A DNA stretch of 7,503 nucleotides from Bacteroidales bacterium UBA1256 (GTDB lineage: Bacteria; Bacteroidota; Bacteroidia; Bacteroidales; Paludibacteraceae): contig DBVU01000108.1 of assembly GCA_002308195.1 (NCBI GenBank), positions 11,101 through 18,603 of the forward strand, written 5' to 3'. Position 1 is the first letter of the stretch, and the number at the start of each line of letters is the position of its first letter. Shown piece by piece: positions 1-7,503 of the stretch. A program made the position numbers and the translations under genes. The notes beneath the pieces are model-generated. The model was not told the origin of the DNA and did no database searches. It was given only the letters and a program-made list of their open reading frames with translations.

Positions 1-1086
1 TTAACATCCAATACGGGTCTGCAATATCGTTTTTCCTATCCTTGCGGATTGGCGAATGGCGATTTGACCGTAGGCGCAGAATATACCTTCAATGGTTTGC
101 ACGACCGGATGTTGGGCTATCAGCGCGACATAACTCAGAATGTGCATGTGGTAGGTGCCTATGCGCAGAATGAATGGAAGACAGACAAGTGGAGTGTATT
201 GATTGGCGCACGTTTGGAGAAACATAACCTGTTGACAAAGCCTGTATGTACACCTCGTGCTACATTCCGTTATACTCCTATCGATGGCTTGGTATTCCGC
301 GCGGGATATAGTAGCGGTTATCGTGCTCCGCAAGCTTATGACGAGGATCTGCATGTGGCTGCCGTTGGTGGCAATGTTTCACTCATTTCGCTAGATCCGA
401 ATCTCAAACCCGAATATTCTCATAGTGCAACGTTGAGCGCAGATTGGTATAGGCAGTTTGGGCGTTGGGAGCTAAACCTAACGGCAGAAGGATTTTATAC
501 CTATCTGCAGGATGTTTTCTTCTTGCGTGAGGATGGCAAGGATGCCTCTGGCAATCTACTCTTTACCCGCACTAATGCACAGGGTGCGTGGGTAGGAGGA
601 CTGAACCTGGAAGGTAAGGTCAGTTATTATCGTGCTCCGTTCTCTTTCAGCCTGTCTGCAGGATATACCTATCAGCAAAGTCGCTACACGGTTGCTCAAC
701 AATGGAGTGCGGATGTGGCTCCTCAGACGCGAATGTTGCACACACCGGACAACTATGGTTATGTGCTGATCGATATCCAACCGATTCAGGATTTCACTAT
801 TTCTATCAACGGAAAAGTAACAGGCTCAATGCTTGTTCCTCACTTGGCAGGCTATGTTGCGCAGGATGAAGAGATTCTAACTCCTTCTTTCTGGGATCTC
901 GGTATCCGTTTGGCATATGATGTTCATCTGTACAAGCATTATTGCCTGGAGATAAGTTGCGGCGTAAAAAATATCCTTGACCAATATCAGCGTGATAATG
1001 ATCAAGGAGAATTTCGTGATGCCAATTATATCTACGGACCTACTATACCTCGTTCGTATTTCGTAGGGTTGGCACTAAAGCTGTAA
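1..1086 (+). CDS. TonB-dependent receptor, C-terminal beta-barrel (5' end outside window)
   Basis: Frame 1 is open from the first base, so the gene begins upstream; about 361 residues are visible and the plug domain and signal peptide are missing. The protein alternates short polar turns with amphipathic strands rich in aromatic residues, as in an outer-membrane barrel. Family-typical segments include FRAGYSSGYRAPQAYDEDLH (about residues 99-118) and, close to the end, GVKNILDQYQRD followed by DANYIYGPTIPRSYFVGLAL. These match the C-terminal strands of the TonB_dep_Rec family, particularly the BtuB/CirA-like Bacteroidota receptors. Such proteins import siderophores, cobalamin or glycans using TonB-ExbBD energy. 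The substrate cannot be read from this fragment. The last residue is Leu rather than the common terminal Phe. The gene meets the minus-strand DUF2490 gene tail to tail, with 3 bp between the stop codons. Confidence 0.93.
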   Translation, partial: LTSNTGLQYRFSYPCGLANGDLTVGAEYTFNGLHDRMLGYQRDITQNVHVVGAYAQNEWKTDKWSVLIGARLEKHNLLTKPVCTPRATFRYTPIDGLVFRAGYSSGYRAPQAYDEDLHVAAVGGNVSLISLDPNLKPEYSHSATLSADWYRQFGRWELNLTAEGFYTYLQDVFFLREDGKDASGNLLFTRTNAQGAWVGGLNLEGKVSYYRAPFSFSLSAGYTYQQSRYTVAQQWSADVAPQTRMLHTPDNYGYVLIDIQPIQDFTISINGKVTGSMLVPHLAGYVAQDEEILTPSFWDLGIRLAYDVHLYKHYCLEISCGVKNILDQYQRDNDQGEFRDANYIYGPTIPRSYFVGLALKL

Positions 1087-1089
1087 TTC

Positions 1090-1944
1090 TTACCAATCCA
1101 AATGATATACAATGCCGATGGCGTGGATGAACGATTTCTGTTCGTCCAGCCTCATTTTTAGTTCCTTGCCACGATAGTATCCACCATTGACATTAATGTC
1201 TCGGTCGTAGCCATATTGGAACCGGTAGTAGAAATCTAAGCTGCTTAACCTACTGACGCGCCATCTAACACCGGCTTGCGTGCGTACAGTGCTAATAAAT
1301 TGCCGACCATCTTTCTGTTGAAATTCAGGCGCATTGAGCGTATTTTCCAGTTCCACCCACAAATAAGGTTTGACTGGTTTGCCTGGTACAGAGAACTCGG
1401 ATCCTAAACGACTACGCAGAAGCCAGTTATACTGATTCTTTTCATCAGGATTCACGCTATCTGTACGAATGTCGCATAATGCTCGCTCGCGTATGTAGAG
1501 TTTGACAAAATCAATGTGGTAGATTCCGCTAACACTAAAGAAAACGCGGTGTCGCAAATATTCGTTTGGATCGTCCCAACCTTTTCTTCCCAGAACACGT
1601 AGTGTGTAACCCGCATCAATCTTAAAATATTCGATGGGTGTGTACGAGAGCGATAGAGTAGTGTACGAGCGATTGAACGAAGGTGCGTACGTCGTATCTA
1701 CCGCCTCACGTTTAGCCGACATTCCCGTTTCCTGGTCGTAAAGACTAAAACGCGCTTCTTCCGCCAGATGGAGATGAACGCCGCAATTCCATTTCTTGGT
1801 GAACTCGGCTCCTACTCGCATCTGGACCTGTTGCTCCGTTGTTTCTCCGGTAGAGAAATAGTCCCATGCCCGTATTGTAGGCGAAACCAGAACTACTATG
1901 CAGAGCAAGCCGGTTCTTATATTTCTAGCAAAGTTATCTATCAT
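1090..1944 (-). CDS. DUF2490-family outer-membrane beta-barrel protein
   Basis: 284 residues. The N-terminus has a signal peptide (hydrophobic core LLCIVVLV, likely cleavage after about residue 26 before WDYF). The rest is alternating beta-strand sequence without hydrophobic helices and ends in Trp, as outer-membrane barrels usually end in an aromatic residue. Tracts such as LRHRVFFSVSG, LRSRLGSEF, KPYLWVELENTL, RTQAGVRWRVS and LDFYYRFQYGYD fit the DUF2490 family, a group of small outer-membrane barrels of unknown function. The start is fixed by a 4-base overlap (ATGA) with the stop of the DUF4956 gene, which suggests translational coupling. It is the last gene of the minus-strand block, and no stem plus T-run terminator is seen after it. 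A role as a channel or scaffold for the product of the VTC/DUF4956 genes is inference. Confidence 0.85.
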   Translation of the reverse strand: MIDNFARNIRTGLLCIVVLVSPTIRAWDYFSTGETTEQQVQMRVGAEFTKKWNCGVHLHLAEEARFSLYDQETGMSAKREAVDTTYAPSFNRSYTTLSLSYTPIEYFKIDAGYTLRVLGRKGWDDPNEYLRHRVFFSVSGIYHIDFVKLYIRERALCDIRTDSVNPDEKNQYNWLLRSRLGSEFSVPGKPVKPYLWVELENTLNAPEFQQKDGRQFISTVRTQAGVRWRVSRLSSLDFYYRFQYGYDRDINVNGGYYRGKELKMRLDEQKSFIHAIGIVYHLDW

Positions 1945-2696
1945 CTAAACTTTGTTATTTGGTCTATACTATTCACAATTTTCCCCGGTTCCAACGAATA
2001 AGTTATATTGAGATATGCCACATCGCGCAGGAAATCAATATGACCTATTTCTACGTCAATTATCTTGAGTCCGGTTCTCTCTTCCAGATCCGCAATCAGT
2101 TCTTTGCGGCGGTCTGGGCGGATATTCTCAATCTTCTCGTAGAGAATGATTTTCTTAGACAAACGCTTACGATTGTTCCACAACTCAAAGCCGAGCGCAA
2201 GCAGAATGATTAGCGCATTGGCGATAAGCAGCAGATACCATGCCAGTCCATCGGCTTTCAGGCTAAGCGAATTGATTACCGAAACAGCAATAATGATGAA
2301 CATGTAGTTCATTTCGCGGATAGGAACTGTCTCTGTGCGATATCTAATCATGCCAAATATAGCAAATAGACCCAACACAAATCCGGTCTGAATATCCAGA
2401 ATCTGCATCAACCATAACAGCAAGAACATAGCGCTCGAGAAGAGCATGTAGGTGACGTAATAATCGCGTCTACGACAGAAACGATAGTATATGCAATATA
2501 CTATTACCCACGTTACTAATAGGTTGAAAAGGAACATCAGTGGCATGGTAATGAGATCCTCGCTGACGTGTAACCACTCGGCGATCGAATGCATCACATA
2601 CGAGATACTATCACTTGTGCCAAAACGTGCAGCGATAGACGGATCGTCCTCCAAAAATTCCAACGTTGGGTTGGCTAGATCTACTTGCATTAACAT
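1941..2696 (-). CDS. DUF4956-family inner-membrane protein (partner of VTC polymerase)
   Basis: 251 residues. Four or five hydrophobic segments lie at about 50-72, 80-100, 104-117, 131-146 and 151-171. The family signature is FAIFGMIRYRTE (111-122) followed by VPIREMNY (124-131), a conserved basic loop between membrane helices. A soluble C-terminal part (about 175-251) is predicted to be cytoplasmic by the positive-inside rule (NNRKRLSKK, 174-182). DUF4956 proteins are of unknown biochemical function but are commonly encoded next to VTC-domain polymerases, as here, 16 bp downstream of the VTC gene. By analogy with yeast VTC, where polymerase and membrane domains are joined, this could be the membrane module that translocates the polymer; that is inference. 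ATG at 2696 is used; a second ATG two codons later is equally possible. Confidence 0.88.
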   Translation of the reverse strand: MLMQVDLANPTLEFLEDDPSIAARFGTSDSISYVMHSIAEWLHVSEDLITMPLMFLFNLLVTWVIVYCIYYRFCRRRDYYVTYMLFSSAMFLLLWLMQILDIQTGFVLGLFAIFGMIRYRTETVPIREMNYMFIIIAVSVINSLSLKADGLAWYLLLIANALIILLALGFELWNNRKRLSKKIILYEKIENIRPDRRKELIADLEERTGLKIIDVEIGHIDFLRDVAYLNITYSLEPGKIVNSIDQITKFR

Positions 2697-2712
2697 AATT
2701 CTATATTTTTTC

Positions 2713-3489
2713 TTAATTATCTAACAATCGTTCAATACGACGAATTTTTTCCTTAAATCTATTGCGCTTTAGGTTCGGTGTCGTAAGCGCCGTTCCAATG
2801 CAGTATTTGCTGATTTTCAGCGGATAAACATGCTGATCGCGCATTATTTTGGTCATCTGCGATGGACTGTTTCCATCTCGTTTTAGTTCGATGATAACCA
2901 GGTCCTTGTAACTTTTATCTTCGTGGCTCAGCACATTGTGCCATACCAGATTCATGTCTATGGTCAGCCGTTCGGTCTTCTGCCGATTGACTAGCGTGAT
3001 TCGCTTAAAGTCCGTCCGCAGATGTGGGGAAATCGTGTCCCAGGAGTAATGGCTTTTTTGTTCGATGAAATCGGCGATTCTTATATCTTCTTTGCCATGC
3101 CCGATAGTATCTGCCGTTAGTTGGGTATTCGGAACTTCTATGCGTTTCTTCTTGGTCCGCCCCTTATTGTTTTTTCGCTTGATTTCCAAGAATGTCAGCC
3201 CGCTATCTACATATTGCCGTACGCGTATTTTCTGTCTAACCAGTTGTCGGTCATGATGACGCATGTACATATCCAGTGTATCGGTATCGTAGTACATGGT
3301 GTCGTATGTCGCAATTCGCTTTCCGTCGATCTCTTGCGCAAAGTAATCGGTTTGTGCGGCTTGCAGAATAGCGGGCAGCATAGGCAATGACACCGCATAT
3401 TTGGTATCAATGCGGTTCATCAGCTTCACGCTTTCCATCTCGGCCAAACTGATTGGCTCGAACTTACTTATCAGAGAAGATATATTCAA
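2713..3489 (-). CDS. VTC-domain polyphosphate polymerase
   Basis: 258 residues, essentially only the VTC catalytic tunnel domain, without SPX or membrane segments. Visible motifs in order: RIDTKY (26-31), YDTMYYDT (62-69), RQKIRVRQY (85-93), FLEIKRK (100-106), FKRITLVN (161-168), LTIDMN (175-180), IIELKRDG (199-206) and LKISKY (224-229). By position K30, R89/R91, K104, R163, E201 and K225/K228 correspond to the basic nucleotide- and phosphate-binding residues and the metal-binding Glu of yeast Vtc4, so it looks catalytically intact. The expected reaction is transfer of ATP gamma-phosphate onto polyphosphate. No ATG lies before residue 18, which is inside the conserved N-terminal region (KFEPISLAEM), so translation probably begins at TTG 3489, or at a nearby codon. 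An in-frame TAA lies just upstream. The gene overlaps the preceding one by 26 bases. Substrate specificity of bacterial VTC proteins is mostly untested. Confidence 0.9.
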   Translation of the reverse strand: MNISSLISKFEPISLAEMESVKLMNRIDTKYAVSLPMLPAILQAAQTDYFAQEIDGKRIATYDTMYYDTDTLDMYMRHHDRQLVRQKIRVRQYVDSGLTFLEIKRKNNKGRTKKKRIEVPNTQLTADTIGHGKEDIRIADFIEQKSHYSWDTISPHLRTDFKRITLVNRQKTERLTIDMNLVWHNVLSHEDKSYKDLVIIELKRDGNSPSQMTKIMRDQHVYPLKISKYCIGTALTTPNLKRNRFKEKIRRIERLLDN

Positions 3490-3892
3490 AGACCTTTACG
3501 CTATATAGTTTGCCGTTAGGCAAATAGTTGTACTGTTTGGCTTTTGTGCCATCTTTGTTCCACTCGTATTTGCGAATGCGCACGGGTTTGTTGCGATCGT
3601 TGTATTCCACTTCTTCCTGCACCTTGCCTGTTTTGTCATCATAAGTGCTTGTGACACGCCATTTCTGGCCATACGTGGCATACTCAATCTCCTCGATGCA
3701 TCGTCCTTGCGCATCATACACTTTGATGCGATCCAGCCAACGAGTCTTGGTCCGGTCATCGGTGTTCCACTCTTTGACTGTCAGGTTCTTACGTTTCTCG
3801 CGTTTAGCGAGTTGTTCTGGCGTCAGCAGACTCTGCGCCATCGATGTGCTTGCTATCAGCAAGCAGGCTAATAAATATAATGCTTTCTTCAT
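3464..3892 (-). CDS. small exported protein with YD/RHS-like tracts
   Basis: 142 residues. The signal peptide is clear: KK, then a hydrophobic core YLLACLLIAS and a SMA-Q cleavage site at about residue 19. The mature part is hydrophilic, strongly charged and built of beta-strand-like tracts of the type YD..G..xEEhEY: VYDAQGRCIEEIEY, TYDDKTGKVQEEVEY and NYLPNGKLYSVKVFEY. This resembles YD/RHS-type or MORN-like beta repeats found in many short Bacteroidota exported proteins. I do not recognise a named family. The only two cysteines are in the signal peptide (residue 10) and at about residue 64. ATG 3892 sits 6 bp after the lipoprotein stop codon, and the 3' end overlaps the VTC gene by 26 bases, so it is embedded in the operon. 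A periplasmic adaptor role between polymerase, barrel and lipoprotein is a guess from position only. Confidence 0.8.
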   Translation of the reverse strand: MKKALYLLACLLIASTSMAQSLLTPEQLAKREKRKNLTVKEWNTDDRTKTRWLDRIKVYDAQGRCIEEIEYATYGQKWRVTSTYDDKTGKVQEEVEYNDRNKPVRIRKYEWNKDGTKAKQYNYLPNGKLYSVKVFEYIFSDK

Positions 3893-3898
3893 AATTTC

Positions 3899-5428
3899 TT
3901 ACGATCCTTGTTGTAAGCTTACAGCTGATCCTCCGGTGCATGAGGCGGGATAATAGCCCATGCCATTGAATATCTGTGTTCCGCTTGCGCTTACACTTTT
4001 CTGTAGAGTGGGTTTAGAGTCGCCACTAACCACCATCTTAGTTCCTCCGCTACTTGGCGTTTGGAAGGCAAACACGTTGTCGCCTACAGTCAGCGCGTAC
4101 CATGTGCTTTTGCTCCACGAAGAGGTGTAATAGCATGTTTGATTCAGTTTCGAATTGCGTTCCAATCCTCCGATGGCAACGATTGTACCGCCATTCACGG
4201 TCAGATAGAATCGGTCTTCGGTGTTAGCATCAATGCCCACTTCCGGATCTCGACTACCGATGGCATACACTACACCTCCGTTGATGATGCAATTTCCATT
4301 AGCATCCATTCCATCGTTTCCGGTAGAATAAGCACAAACCAATCCTCCGTTGATAGTGAACGTACTACCTGCATTGATGGCATCGTCCGCTGATTGGGAG
4401 TATATCTGTCCTCCGTTGATTGTGATCGTACCTTTGGCCTCAATGCCCTCTGGCTTGTTTCCCGTCGTATCTTGATGATCTCCGGGCCTACCGCCTCCGC
4501 CTGGGCCTCCGGGACCTCCGCTATTTTGCGCCTCGCCTGTACAAATCGCCTTGATCGAACCATCATTCACCACAAGATTGCTTTTTGTTTTAATGCACTT
4601 AGCGGGACTGGTCACGTATATCGTACCACCAGTGATTTCTATGTTCCCGTAGGCAAGTATACCTTTGTCTTCCAGACTGGTCACGCTTAGATCCCCTCCG
4701 CTAATGACAATGCTACTTGTGTCGCATTGTATGCCTTCTTGCTTTGCCGTAATCGTGACTTGCCCACCGTTGATGATGATACCATCGTTAGCGTGCAAAC
4801 CATCGCTAGCATTCGTGGTGAGTGTAAGCGTGGCCGTGGTATTTGGGCACAGACGGATATAATCGTCACTGGCAATGGCATGTTTGTAGTTACCGGTCAC
4901 GTTCAGACTTCCTGTTCCGGAAATACACAGTTTATCTTCACAAAAGATAGTGGCCTTACGGTCTTCCGTCGTGGCGGCATAATTGGTGCCATCGGTCAAT
5001 GTGTTCGTTCCTGCGATGACCAGATAGCAGCGCTTGTTGCTCTGACAATTGATGGCTGGTCCATCCGGGCAAGTCACAGTCAGCCCTTGCAGTGCCAACT
5101 GGTATTTATAGTCGCTATATATGCTCAGTTGACCGGTTCCTGAACCGCTCACATTATAAACAATGTGTTTGGCTGTCGAGCGAATCGTCACATAACCGTT
5201 GTTCGTGTTGATACTGACTCCATCTGCGCTGCCGACAACAGTCACGTCTGTGCCGTTCCAGATGATTTCAATCGTCGAGTTCCATGTCTGGTTTTCTACC
5301 AAATCTTCGTCATCACCTAGGTTGGTGGTGTTATTAGTACCATTGGTGGTCTCCTCTTCGTTGTTGCAACCGGTCCCGATGAATGCTACTAGCATCAATG
5401 CGGGAATCATCTTCCATAATGTCTTCAT
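3899..5428 (-). CDS. surface lipoprotein with right-handed beta-helix (Cthe_2159/carbohydrate-binding type)
   Basis: 509 residues from ATG 5428. Upstream extension in the same frame is possible but overlaps queH and gives a non-signal N-terminus; 5428 instead gives KTLWK, a hydrophobic core and Cys21 in IGTGC. The acidic CNNEEE after the cysteine resembles the Bacteroidota lipoprotein export signal, so the protein is probably displayed on the cell surface. A low-complexity Asn/Thr/Asp linker (27-50) follows. From about 70 to 420 the chain repeats a beta-helix coil, with G-I-x-A and I-N-G-G turns at about 219-222, 242-245, 266-268, 337-340, 359-362, 382-385 and 411-414. This pattern fits the Cthe_2159 family, whose Clostridium thermocellum founder is a polysaccharide-binding parallel beta-helix. 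A Gly/Pro-rich break lies at 303-316. Several cysteine pairs could be disulfides. It starts 4 bp after the queH stop codon. The ligand is not known. Confidence 0.87.
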   Translation of the reverse strand: MKTLWKMIPALMLVAFIGTGCNNEEETTNGTNNTTNLGDDEDLVENQTWNSTIEIIWNGTDVTVVGSADGVSINTNNGYVTIRSTAKHIVYNVSGSGTGQLSIYSDYKYQLALQGLTVTCPDGPAINCQSNKRCYLVIAGTNTLTDGTNYAATTEDRKATIFCEDKLCISGTGSLNVTGNYKHAIASDDYIRLCPNTTATLTLTTNASDGLHANDGIIINGGQVTITAKQEGIQCDTSSIVISGGDLSVTSLEDKGILAYGNIEITGGTIYVTSPAKCIKTKSNLVVNDGSIKAICTGEAQNSGGPGGPGGGGRPGDHQDTTGNKPEGIEAKGTITINGGQIYSQSADDAINAGSTFTINGGLVCAYSTGNDGMDANGNCIINGGVVYAIGSRDPEVGIDANTEDRFYLTVNGGTIVAIGGLERNSKLNQTCYYTSSWSKSTWYALTVGDNVFAFQTPSSGGTKMVVSGDSKPTLQKSVSASGTQIFNGMGYYPASCTGGSAVSLQQGS

Positions 5429-6197: not shown

Positions 6198-6427
6198 CGC
6201 AAAGGTTTTTATGACCTATGTCGTTGAACTCAGCAGCGTTAAAAAGTGAGGACATAGAAATTTAGCGTTTGCTATATTTTGGAAGCCGTTCATTTCTCGA
6301 CAACTTGAATTTCTATGTTTCCATAAATATTGCGAAACGCTCACGCACCGCGTGGGCTTTCTGCATATTGGACATAGAGGGAGTCGAGACCCGAACGGAC
6401 CAATGGCACCTAGCCTGCGCTTTTTTA
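6198..6427 (+). ncRNA. candidate structured small RNA (possibly Bacteroidales-1/6S-like)
   Basis: The region runs from a consensus promoter to a T6 run at 6421-6426, with no plausible coding frame. Complementary segments: 6198-6201 with 6416-6419 and 6203-6206 with 6408-6411 (closing stem next to the T run); CTATGTC 6216-6222 with GACATAG 6371-6377; a perfect 11-bp ACATAGAAATT 6252-6262 with 6308-6318; and a hairpin 6339-6346/6350-6357 (8 bp, loop ACC). The pairing of the predicted 5' end with the bases before the T run supports a discrete transcript of about 230 nt. A promoter-defined, terminator-ended RNA in Bacteroidales recalls the Bacteroidales-1 RNA, which has been proposed to be the 6S RNA of this group; I cannot confirm the identity by sequence. 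It lacks the hallmarks of tmRNA, RNase P RNA and 4.5S RNA. Confidence 0.55.
6405..6427 (+). terminator. possible transcript end of the small RNA (weak stem plus T6)
   Basis: Six T residues (6421-6426) follow TGCGC. The local hairpin is poor (GGC 6405-6407 with GCC 6413-6415), but the bases before the T run can pair with the predicted RNA 5' end (6198-6206), so the closing stem could serve as the terminator stem. The T run alone is moderate evidence. Confidence 0.35.
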
Positions 6428-6517
6428 TGTGTATACACGCGAACAATATAAACCTAATACAATGGAGAATGCCGAAAGCCGAATAATAAAGTGGAGGCAA
6501 AATTAAATAATTCAAAA

Positions 6518-6934
6518 ATGGAACTAGAAGTAATTTCTCAAGACAAAGAATTTATTGGCAAGCATCCAGTGCAGAGCGAGTTATATGTAGCATTACAAAG
6601 TCGTATAATAAAAAAAATGCAAACCGAGCAGCATAATAAAAAAATATATGAAATGTATGTTCGCATATCAAGTCCAATGAATAAAAAAGGTGTCATTAGA
6701 CTCGCTTGTGCTCATCCTGCTCATGGACTGGACTCTACCCATATAATGTTAGGAGAACGAACCCGAAAGGAATTAGCAGTTAAAGAGTATGATAAAGTGA
6801 CATTAGAAAATGTATCAAAGTGGCGTTTCTTGTATGAGCATCCAGAAACAAGTATCCGTGTTGCTTTTATAGTATCTATGCTATCAATAGTATTAGGTGT
6901 TACCGCGATTATATTGACAATAATTTATAACTAA
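6518..6934 (+). CDS. unrecognised small protein with one C-terminal transmembrane anchor
   Basis: 138 residues from ATG 6518; the frame extends to GTG 6491, which would add nine residues. I favour the ATG because it follows an A-rich leader typical of Bacteroidota starts, whereas a GGAGG at 6493-6497 is too far from it to count as a ribosome binding site. The N-terminal half is charged and possibly helical (LQSRIIKKMQTEQHNKK). A central part with alternating strands reads YVRISSPMNKKGVIRL, then HIMLGERTRKELAVKEYDKVTLENV. The spacing of this last segment resembles a double-psi or AbrB-like small beta-barrel (hydrophobic, R..L.V...D.V.L), a weak similarity only. The last about 23 residues form one hydrophobic helix (VAFIVSMLSIVLGVTAIILTIIY), so the protein is probably tail-anchored with its bulk in the cytoplasm. 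The gene is visibly AT-rich compared with the left operon. The LRR gene starts 15 bp downstream. No family is recognised. Confidence 0.7.
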   Translation: MELEVISQDKEFIGKHPVQSELYVALQSRIIKKMQTEQHNKKIYEMYVRISSPMNKKGVIRLACAHPAHGLDSTHIMLGERTRKELAVKEYDKVTLENVSKWRFLYEHPETSIRVAFIVSMLSIVLGVTAIILTIIYN

Positions 6935-6949
6935 AAATGTTTTACAATT

Positions 6950-7503
6950 ATGAAAAAACTATTTACTATCCTATTAGCTATAGTGGCAAATATAGGAATG
7001 TCACTAGCGTACATACAAGTCGGAAACTTGTATTATTCAGACTACGATGGTAATGGAATAGCAGTTGAAGTTGTAGATTGTCCTCGAGATTTAAGCGGTG
7101 ATGTTGTTATTCCGTCCTCTGTAACCTACGATGGGAGAGTATATCGCGTCGTAAGAATTGGAGAGAAAGCTTTCTATAGTTGCGAAAGTTTGACCTCTGT
7201 GACGATTCCCAATAGCGTCACAAGCATTGGTAAAGAGGCTTTCCATTATTGCAGAGCATTGAATACTGTCGAAATCCCAAATAGCGTCACATCCATCGAA
7301 GAGGATGCTTTCTGTTTTTGCGACGGAATGACGGGCGAACTAATTATCCCAAACAGTGTGACGAGCATTGGCAGTGGCGCTTTTGATGGTTGCAGCAGTT
7401 TGACTTCTATTACTATTTCAAATAGCATTACAAACATTGAATCTGGAGTTTTCGGCTATTGTCATGGTTTGTCTTCTATAACTATTCCCAATAGCGTCAC
7501 AAG
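6950..7503 (+). CDS. BspA-like secreted leucine-rich-repeat protein (LRR_5), 3' end outside window
   Basis: The open frame from ATG 6950 continues past the window end (184 codons visible). The signal peptide is MKKLFTILLAIVANIGMSLA with likely cleavage after residue 20. A short beta-rich lead-in (21-70, containing Y-Y-S-D-Y-D-G-N-G) precedes repeats of about 23 residues of the form IPNSVTSIGxxAFxxCxxLTSVT. The Pro of each unit falls at 87, 110, 134, (Ser) 157 and 180. This is the LRR_5/BspA family of Bacteroidales and Treponema, whose members are surface or secreted proteins involved in adhesion or binding to host or polymer. The third repeat is one residue longer than the others. The C-terminus, where a sorting domain or anchor would lie, is not visible. 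It follows the small membrane-anchored gene by 15 bp and may be co-transcribed with it. Confidence 0.9.
   Translation, partial: MKKLFTILLAIVANIGMSLAYIQVGNLYYSDYDGNGIAVEVVDCPRDLSGDVVIPSSVTYDGRVYRVVRIGEKAFYSCESLTSVTIPNSVTSIGKEAFHYCRALNTVEIPNSVTSIEEDAFCFCDGMTGELIIPNSVTSIGSGAFDGCSSLTSITISNSITNIESGVFGYCHGLSSITIPNSVT
7205..7503 (+). repeat. tandem 69-72 bp LRR-coding repeats
   Basis: The word CCCAATAGCGTCACAAG and variants recur with spacings of 69, 72, 69 and 69 bases. ATTCCCAATAGCGTCACAAG is identical at 7205-7224 and 7484-7503. The near-identity at DNA level suggests recent repeat duplication within the LRR gene. The array runs off the window. Confidence 0.8.

Follow-up and report, generated by a model that had tools for sequence, protein, structure and literature searches.

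A candidate trans-envelope phosphate-polymer module built around a VTC-family polymerase and DUF4956 in Paludibacteraceae

Five genes on the minus strand of a 7,503-nucleotide stretch from Bacteroidales bacterium UBA1256 (Paludibacteraceae; assembly GCA_002308195.1, contig DBVU01000108.1, positions 11,101–18,603; this whole stretch is hereafter the window) were analysed. They lie tightly packed at 1090–5428 and encode a lipoprotein of the Cthe_2159 family, a 142-residue exported protein (P142), a VTC-family polyphosphate polymerase, a DUF4956 membrane protein, and a DUF2490 protein. VTC enzymes are known from eukaryotes, in which synthesis is coupled to membrane passage. We propose that the five genes specify a trans-envelope phosphate-polymer module with VTC as the polymerase, DUF4956 and P142 as parts along the way, DUF2490 as the exit, and the Cthe_2159 lipoprotein as the surface holder, and we give this reading a probability of roughly 0.42. 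The variation of the gene set among related loci supports an envelope-spanning role; the product, its direction of travel, and the roles of the outer parts are inferred.

Gene set and its conservation in Paludibacteraceae

All five genes were found to be of the kinds stated by the first-pass annotation of this DNA. The beta-helix lipoprotein (PF14262; 5428–3899; 509 amino acids; Pfam E 5e-53) is followed by P142 (3892–3464), which has no clear family, and by the VTC-family polyphosphate polymerase domain (PF09359; 3489–2713; 258 amino acids, TTG start; E 2e-31). The DUF4956 inner-membrane protein (PF16316; 2696–1941; E 9e-45) and the DUF2490 protein, a predicted outer-membrane beta-barrel (PF10677; 1944–1090; 284 amino acids, ending in W; E 6e-11), complete the set, all on the minus strand. 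The Pfam scan covered nine open frames of the window, and the matches to PF14262, PF09359, PF16316, and PF10677 all exceeded the curated cut-offs. The transcribed order is QueH, Cthe_2159, P142, VTC, DUF4956, and DUF2490, and no two neighbours are more than 16 bases apart; the P142 and VTC frames share 26 bases, those of DUF4956 and DUF2490 share 4.

The neighbourhood was followed in 80 related loci taken from species genomes in GTDB that belong to Paludibacteraceae, Bacteroidales, or Bacteroidia, many of them from the rumen or other gut habitats, and a gene was counted when it lay on the same strand within 6 kb of VTC. DUF4956 was present at 78 loci, DUF2490 at 75, P142 at 74, and Cthe_2159 at 59; all five genes were together at 53. 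Many of these contigs end early. When the count is restricted to the 48 loci flanked on each side by 4.5 kb or more, the corresponding numbers become 48, 47, 47, and 37, with all five genes at 35. Since the five-gene neighbourhood recurs in most of the 80 loci, it is beyond chance, and the co-occurrence in relatives on which the first-pass annotation had staked its proposal holds within this lineage. DUF2490 follows DUF4956 near VTC in 75 loci, and the order VTC–DUF4956–DUF2490 is kept wherever these genes are present. Cthe_2159 and P142 are more mobile: they stand together before this trio at 30 loci, together after it at 14, and one on each side at nine. Median identity across the related loci was 82% for P142, 80% for DUF4956, 71% for VTC, and 52% for both DUF2490 and Cthe_2159, so P142 is no less constrained than the membrane core. 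Among the matches listed, the VTC relatives with a named source come from metagenome-assembled genomes (MAGs) of Paludibacteraceae.

The VTC–DUF4956 core

Beyond the lineage, VTC and DUF4956 form a nearly fixed unit. A sample of 119 Bacteroidales genomes contained VTC in 57, DUF4956 in 62, DUF2490 in 42, Cthe_2159 in 21, and CotH kinases in 69. DUF4956 lay within 1 kb of VTC on the same strand at 59 of the 61 VTC places; one of the other two is at a contig end, and the second has DUF4956 about 4 kb off, with CotH between. Conversely, VTC was within 1 kb at 59 of the 71 DUF4956 places. VTC was also found in 37 of 198 Bacteroidota genomes, with DUF4956 within four genes at all 40 fetched places, and the two genes adjoin on plasmids of Deinococcus (two), Shinella (one), and Aminobacter (one) (6 of 16 plasmid records viewed). 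Three DUF4956 genes of the window kind (L195, L196, L197) have no VTC in the fetched stretch, and two of the three genomes concerned (G025, G108) gave no VTC match genome-wide. At one locus (L127, 4415–6205), an ankyrin-repeat protein with a calcineurin-like phosphoesterase domain lies downstream of VTC–DUF4956, possibly as a polymer-degrading partner.

The window VTC matches PF09359 with E 2.4e-31 over profile positions 1–233 of 235 (residues 25–235 of the protein). No SPX domain and no Vtc-type membrane domain was found on it, PF09359 being the only family above cut-off. As a query, the protein matched at least 7806 of 8000 candidate proteins scored. A profile of 22 diverse VTC proteins retrieved yeast Vtc4 from the Protein Data Bank (PDB; 3g3q, E 7e-15); PDB searches with the single sequence or a narrow profile returned no relative. 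By profile mapping, 11 of 13 compared Vtc4 residues are identical in the window protein: K30, R89, R91, K104, K114, R163, R174, E201, K203, S227, and K228 correspond to Vtc4 K200, R264, R266, K281, K294, R361, R373, E426, K428, S457, and K458, respectively, and Vtc4 R253 and H283 are not matched. Of these, K30, R89, K104, K114, R163, E201, K203, S227, and K228 are the same in all 22 proteins. Apart from R264, R266, and E426, we take the compared Vtc4 positions to be catalytic. For these three, the substitutions R264A/R266A/E426N give a catalytically impaired Vtc4 (PMC9911596), and all three residues are kept in the window. The window VTC thus looks catalytically intact, in agreement with the first-pass annotation.

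Neither PPK1 nor PPK2 was detected in 25 Paludibacteraceae genomes (0 of 25 each); the sampled MAGs can be incomplete, although a double absence from 25 genomes is hard to ascribe to that. VTC is therefore likely the only polyphosphate polymerase in the sampled Paludibacteraceae. In the 119 Bacteroidales genomes, PPK1 occurred in 78.

The window DUF4956 protein scored 152.9 bits against a curated cut-off of 30.6. Its AlphaFold2 model (mean pLDDT 69, moderate) predicts five long helices and a small ferredoxin/ACT-like alpha/beta C-terminal domain, which resembles only common ferredoxin-like folds. An RYRT motif (R118, R120) lies between the third and fourth helices. G109, R120, and F133 are present in all 69 DUF4956 sequences compared from Bacteroidales and plasmids, and R118 in 66 of them. 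The positive-inside rule would put the RYRT loop on the cytoplasmic side of the membrane, the side that the VTC product would reach.

Envelope parts at related loci

Outside the window lineage, other envelope proteins stand beside the same core. In a second VTC clade, a protein of about 360 residues accompanies VTC–DUF4956. Nine of these proteins were scanned with Pfam; seven exceeded cut-offs of HlyD-type adaptors (L203 barely), two (L146, L222) had no match, and the remaining proteins were assigned to the adaptor group by profile. Among 100 VTC loci, DUF2490 was found at 33, an HlyD-like adaptor at 32, and both at none. In a tree of 115 VTC proteins, made quickly with FastTree and carrying long-branch warnings, the adaptor-type loci fall on a single branch (support 84); since one change suffices, the mutual exclusion of DUF2490 and adaptor amounts to a single switch. 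A TolC-type OEP occurs at two adaptor loci (L153, L221). The second of these, with CotH, DUF4956, HlyD adaptor, OEP, VTC, and LTD protein in a row, is perhaps the clearest exporter-like VTC locus. On a Pseudoalteromonas plasmid (L175, 6270–7552), a Porin_O_P porin (E 2e-47) follows DUF4956, an arrangement seen once; a C-terminal VTC remnant lies between an LTD protein and DUF4956, and DUF4956 and the porin look intact.

HlyD-type adaptors, OEP, and porins are envelope transport parts. That such unlike parts accompany the same VTC–DUF4956 core is our strongest reason to think that something passes through the envelope. The outer parts vary among related loci like exchangeable fittings.

A third VTC clade (support 100; L115, L116, L120, L121, L128, L132, L152, L158, L164, L165, L173, L174, and L228) has no recognised outer-membrane partner in its 13 rows. 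Seven of the 13 have CotH-like proteins of about 900–1000 residues, and L228 has an O-antigen-ligase-like neighbour. A supposed fused VTC at L218 was rejected as merely a long open frame, with the adaptor match in another frame.

Outer-half proteins

P142 begins with a signal-like helix, followed by an eight-stranded antiparallel meander of the MORN/YD-repeat/DUF3836 type. Its mature part is basic (isoelectric point 9.4). The protein barely reaches DUF2963 (22.7 bits; cut-off 22.6), and its profile gave chance-like matches only among PDB sequences and weak MORN/YD-like matches with no functional lead among viral models. P142 was found at 16 of 60 Bacteroidales VTC loci and at none of 40 wider loci.

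The Cthe_2159 lipoprotein scored 180.5 bits against a cut-off of 25.8 and matched PDB entries 4peu/4phb at 1.6e-9. It is acidic (isoelectric point 4.5), and its lipobox FIGTGC is followed by NNEEE. A lipoprotein export signal K-(D/E)2 or Q-A-(D/E)2 has been defined for Capnocytophaga (PMC5080379); the N-terminus of the window lipoprotein, C-N-N-E-E-E, has an acidic run without K or QA. A permissive pattern, which also gave false hits, marked a lipobox-like motif in 49 of 94 related open frames. In the 119 Bacteroidales genomes, 6 of 24 Cthe_2159 frames lay within 6 kb of VTC. The surface slot is filled by Cthe_2159 here and by CotH kinases elsewhere: with its own profile, CotH was found at none of the 80 Paludibacteraceae loci, and in the fetched stretch it was present at 34 of the 100 VTC loci.

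We take the DUF2490 family to be outer-membrane beta-barrels. In the 119 genomes, as judged with the Pfam model, DUF2490 lay within 3 kb of VTC at 20 of 49 places and elsewhere at 29, and it accompanied 20 of the 39 VTC places that have DUF4956 of the window kind. DUF2490 and P142 are parts of an outer half that is not confined to VTC loci: it stood apart in 8 of 20 hand-picked stretches, from six genomes, all of which carry VTC elsewhere. The first-pass annotation had treated the five genes as one envelope-spanning system. The envelope-spanning part gains from their co-occurrence, the intact VTC residues, and the transport parts at related loci; the set itself is not indivisible, having VTC–DUF4956 as its core and a separable outer half.

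Alternative explanations

Several observations weigh against a trans-envelope module. VTC is not tied to loss of PPK1 in the 119 Bacteroidales genomes (both in 34, VTC only in 23, PPK1 only in 44, neither in 18; Fisher p 0.25), and the idea of VTC as a PPK1 replacement throughout Bacteroidales was dropped for lack of this association. Neither DUF2490 nor an adaptor was found at 35 of the 100 VTC loci, and the exclusion of one by the other, being one change in the tree, was rejected as repeated independent evidence. In the sole porin-bearing case, VTC is decayed. Among 15 genomes without Cthe_2159 at the VTC locus, nine have one elsewhere and six have none; Cthe_2159 is dispensable, since these six lack it. 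In Streptococcus intermedius, a mutant of the polyphosphate polymerase gene (SIR_1593) still aggregates and retains Pel (PMC12345266). Fold searches with the DUF4956 model, whose confidence is modest, gave no trustworthy solved relative, and five DUF4956 genes beside VTC at adaptor-type loci have weak, sub-threshold matches to MgtC (PF02308). Possibly, DUF4956 is distantly related to MgtC and ends in an ACT-like tail; such a protein would fit a regulator as well as a channel.

It is rather unlikely, in our judgement, that the locus serves inner-membrane phosphate and ATP homeostasis, with VTC making a cytoplasmic polyphosphate store, DUF4956 as an MgtC/ACT-like regulator or sensor of this store, and the surface genes merely co-expressed for biofilm or adhesion. 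Besides the PF02308 matches, this explanation can draw on phn and phosphatase genes near VTC–DUF4956 in Deinococcus QL22, and on hhalign, with which a mixed DUF4956 alignment was set against 30 MgtC proteins (P 1.6e-4, probability 50). For the window clade alone, however, the probability was 0.3; the window DUF4956 had no PF02308 match at E 0.1, and all five matches lie below the curated cut-off. Also in its favour, SIR_1592, which from its gene position would be the DUF4956 gene of S. intermedius, is called an MgtC-like membrane protein with an ACT domain by the authors who studied it (PMC12345266). A regulator would leave the adaptor, TolC-type, and porin neighbours unexplained, and such parts would not be expected of a purely cytoplasmic polyphosphate store.

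We find it harder to believe that VTC is no polyphosphate polymerase in the cell and that the VTC–DUF4956 pair instead supplies a surface protein or polysaccharide with phosphoryl groups or short phosphate chains; in variants that carry CotH, the exported kinase would take exported polyphosphate as its donor where ATP is absent. The frequency of CotH at VTC loci and its presence on a Deinococcus plasmid favour this explanation. Against it, the window frames hold no CotH match, and CotH polyphosphorylates the spore-coat protein CotB (PMC7821199). In favour again, CotH, polyphosphate polymerase, and DUF4956 genes lie beside Pel genes, and S. intermedius deletions of SIR_1592 and of CotH (SIR_1594) change the amounts of Pel and lessen aggregation (PMC7112168, PMC12345266).

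Least probable is that the outer half serves surface display or adhesion, the DUF2490 barrel routing or anchoring Cthe_2159 or CotH and VTC–DUF4956 merely accompanying it: in 7 of the 20 hand-picked stretches DUF2490 does have CotH or Cthe_2159 beside it at a distance from VTC, and the majority of its places noted above are not near VTC, but the six genomes with detached outer halves carry VTC too, P142 and VTC overlap in the window, and P142 is conserved to the same degree as DUF4956.

Proposed mechanism

In the trans-envelope module, VTC would polymerise the gamma-phosphate of ATP into polyphosphate at the cytoplasmic face, as its conserved catalytic residues suggest. The invariant arginine pair of DUF4956 would receive the chain, and DUF4956 would pass it into the periplasm in the manner of the membrane part of yeast VTC. 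P142, small and basic, might escort the anion in the periplasm or dock the parts to one another, and the DUF2490 barrel would provide the outer-membrane exit. At the surface, the acidic Cthe_2159 lipoprotein could hold or use the polymer, perhaps via divalent cations. Such a cassette may let gut and rumen bacteria place phosphate polymers on their surface.

A wider reading, which we hold as rather doubtful, joins these loci into one Bacteroidota machine for polyphosphate synthesis and export that would also be the sole polyphosphate polymerase of Paludibacteraceae. The VTC–DUF4956 core would be combined with interchangeable exits (a DUF2490 barrel with P142, an HlyD-like adaptor with or without TolC, or a gammaproteobacterial OprO/P-type porin) and with a surface client, either the Cthe_2159 helix or an extracellular CotH kinase drawing phosphate from the exported chain. 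A conserved set that joins a bacterial VTC to an inner-membrane partner, an outer-membrane exit, and a surface protein would make the placing of polyphosphate outside the bacterial cell directly testable in a lineage in which no PPK was found. It also links this question to the CotH kinases, whose extracellular phosphate source is to our knowledge unexplained.

Flanking features

A gene for QueH (epoxyqueuosine reductase; 6086–5433, minus strand) ends 4 bases upstream of the Cthe_2159 gene. It was rejected as a sixth member; because it is near VTC in 13 of the 80 related loci, it looks like a passenger. L040, a related locus, has a queuosine biosynthesis protein (PF02547) close to the set as well. 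The C-terminal part of a TonB-dependent receptor (1–1086, plus strand) lies tail-to-tail with the end of the operon, an arrangement seen at 9 of the 80 loci; the receptor was rejected as a part of the system on account of its opposite strand and this low count. AraC-type regulators are found upstream of the set in some Paludibacteraceae (L021, 6934–7791; L030, 7236–8186; L037, 8654–9562).

A BspA-type leucine-rich repeat protein begins at 6950–7501 (plus strand) and is preceded by a frame without known family at 6491–6934. A rod-like RNA hairpin is predicted at 6206–6440 (plus strand), with −76 kcal/mol vs. −54.4 (sd 4.7) for shuffles (z −4.6). Its shape is reminiscent of 6S RNA, and it is preceded by a promoter-like stretch resembling the Bacteroidota consensus. 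In related loci, only the promoter-like first 30–60 bases of this region recur. No Rfam family reached its gathering score anywhere in the window, the hairpin included. A promoter scan of the window found 12 promoters vs. 11.3 expected from shuffles, and a PHROGs search gave nothing useful.

Comparison with known systems

The first-pass annotation knew of no described system with this composition. Our search of the open literature, where absence is not absence from print, likewise found no paper on it, but a related set has been published. Streptococci and clostridia have CotH, polyphosphate polymerase, DUF4956, and DUF4832 genes grouped beside their Pel genes, bifidobacteria have a variant of this group (PMC7112168), and polyphosphate-polymerase and CotH genes are reported in NELoc-2 of Clostridium perfringens (PMC11677781). 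The Gram-positive Pel accessory genes, such as SIR_1594–SIR_1591 of S. intermedius, share with the window the VTC–DUF4956 pair and a secreted partner; the window differs in adding DUF2490, P142, and Cthe_2159, and its nine frames gave no CotH, Pel, or DUF4832 match, Pel genes having been sought within the window only. The authors of the S. intermedius study state that they found no such three-gene arrangement outside Pel loci (PMC12345266). On a plasmid of Deinococcus taeanensis, CotH, VTC, and DUF4956 are consecutive genes and none of the 12 annotated features is a Pel gene, so at this one locus the arrangement does occur elsewhere. Whatever their wider surroundings, Bacteroidota loci such as L224 and L236 have the three genes in the same row.

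The same adjacent DUF4956–DUF2490 pair as in the window is present in Bacteroides thetaiotaomicron as BT3498–BT3499, which are listed in an iron stimulon table with −7.6 and a second figure of 0.175 (PMC10434189). Tripartite HlyD/TolC exporters resemble the related VTC–DUF4956 loci that carry an HlyD-like adaptor, two of them with OEP. The window differs from them: its nine frames contain no HlyD adaptor or OEP, and DUF2490 and P142 stand in their place. The window lipoprotein belongs by sequence to the same family as Cthe_2159 (PDB 4peu, 4phb), whose type protein reportedly binds acidic polysaccharide; the window member differs in being a lipoprotein in a VTC operon.

The yeast VTC complex (Vtc1/Vtc3/Vtc4) shares with the window a polymerase core with the same catalytic residues, and it couples synthesis at the cytosolic face to membrane passage (PMC9911596). 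Its window counterpart lacks the SPX and Vtc membrane domains and has the separate DUF4956 protein as membrane partner. The yeast complex serves the vacuole, whereas the window system has two membranes and surface proteins.

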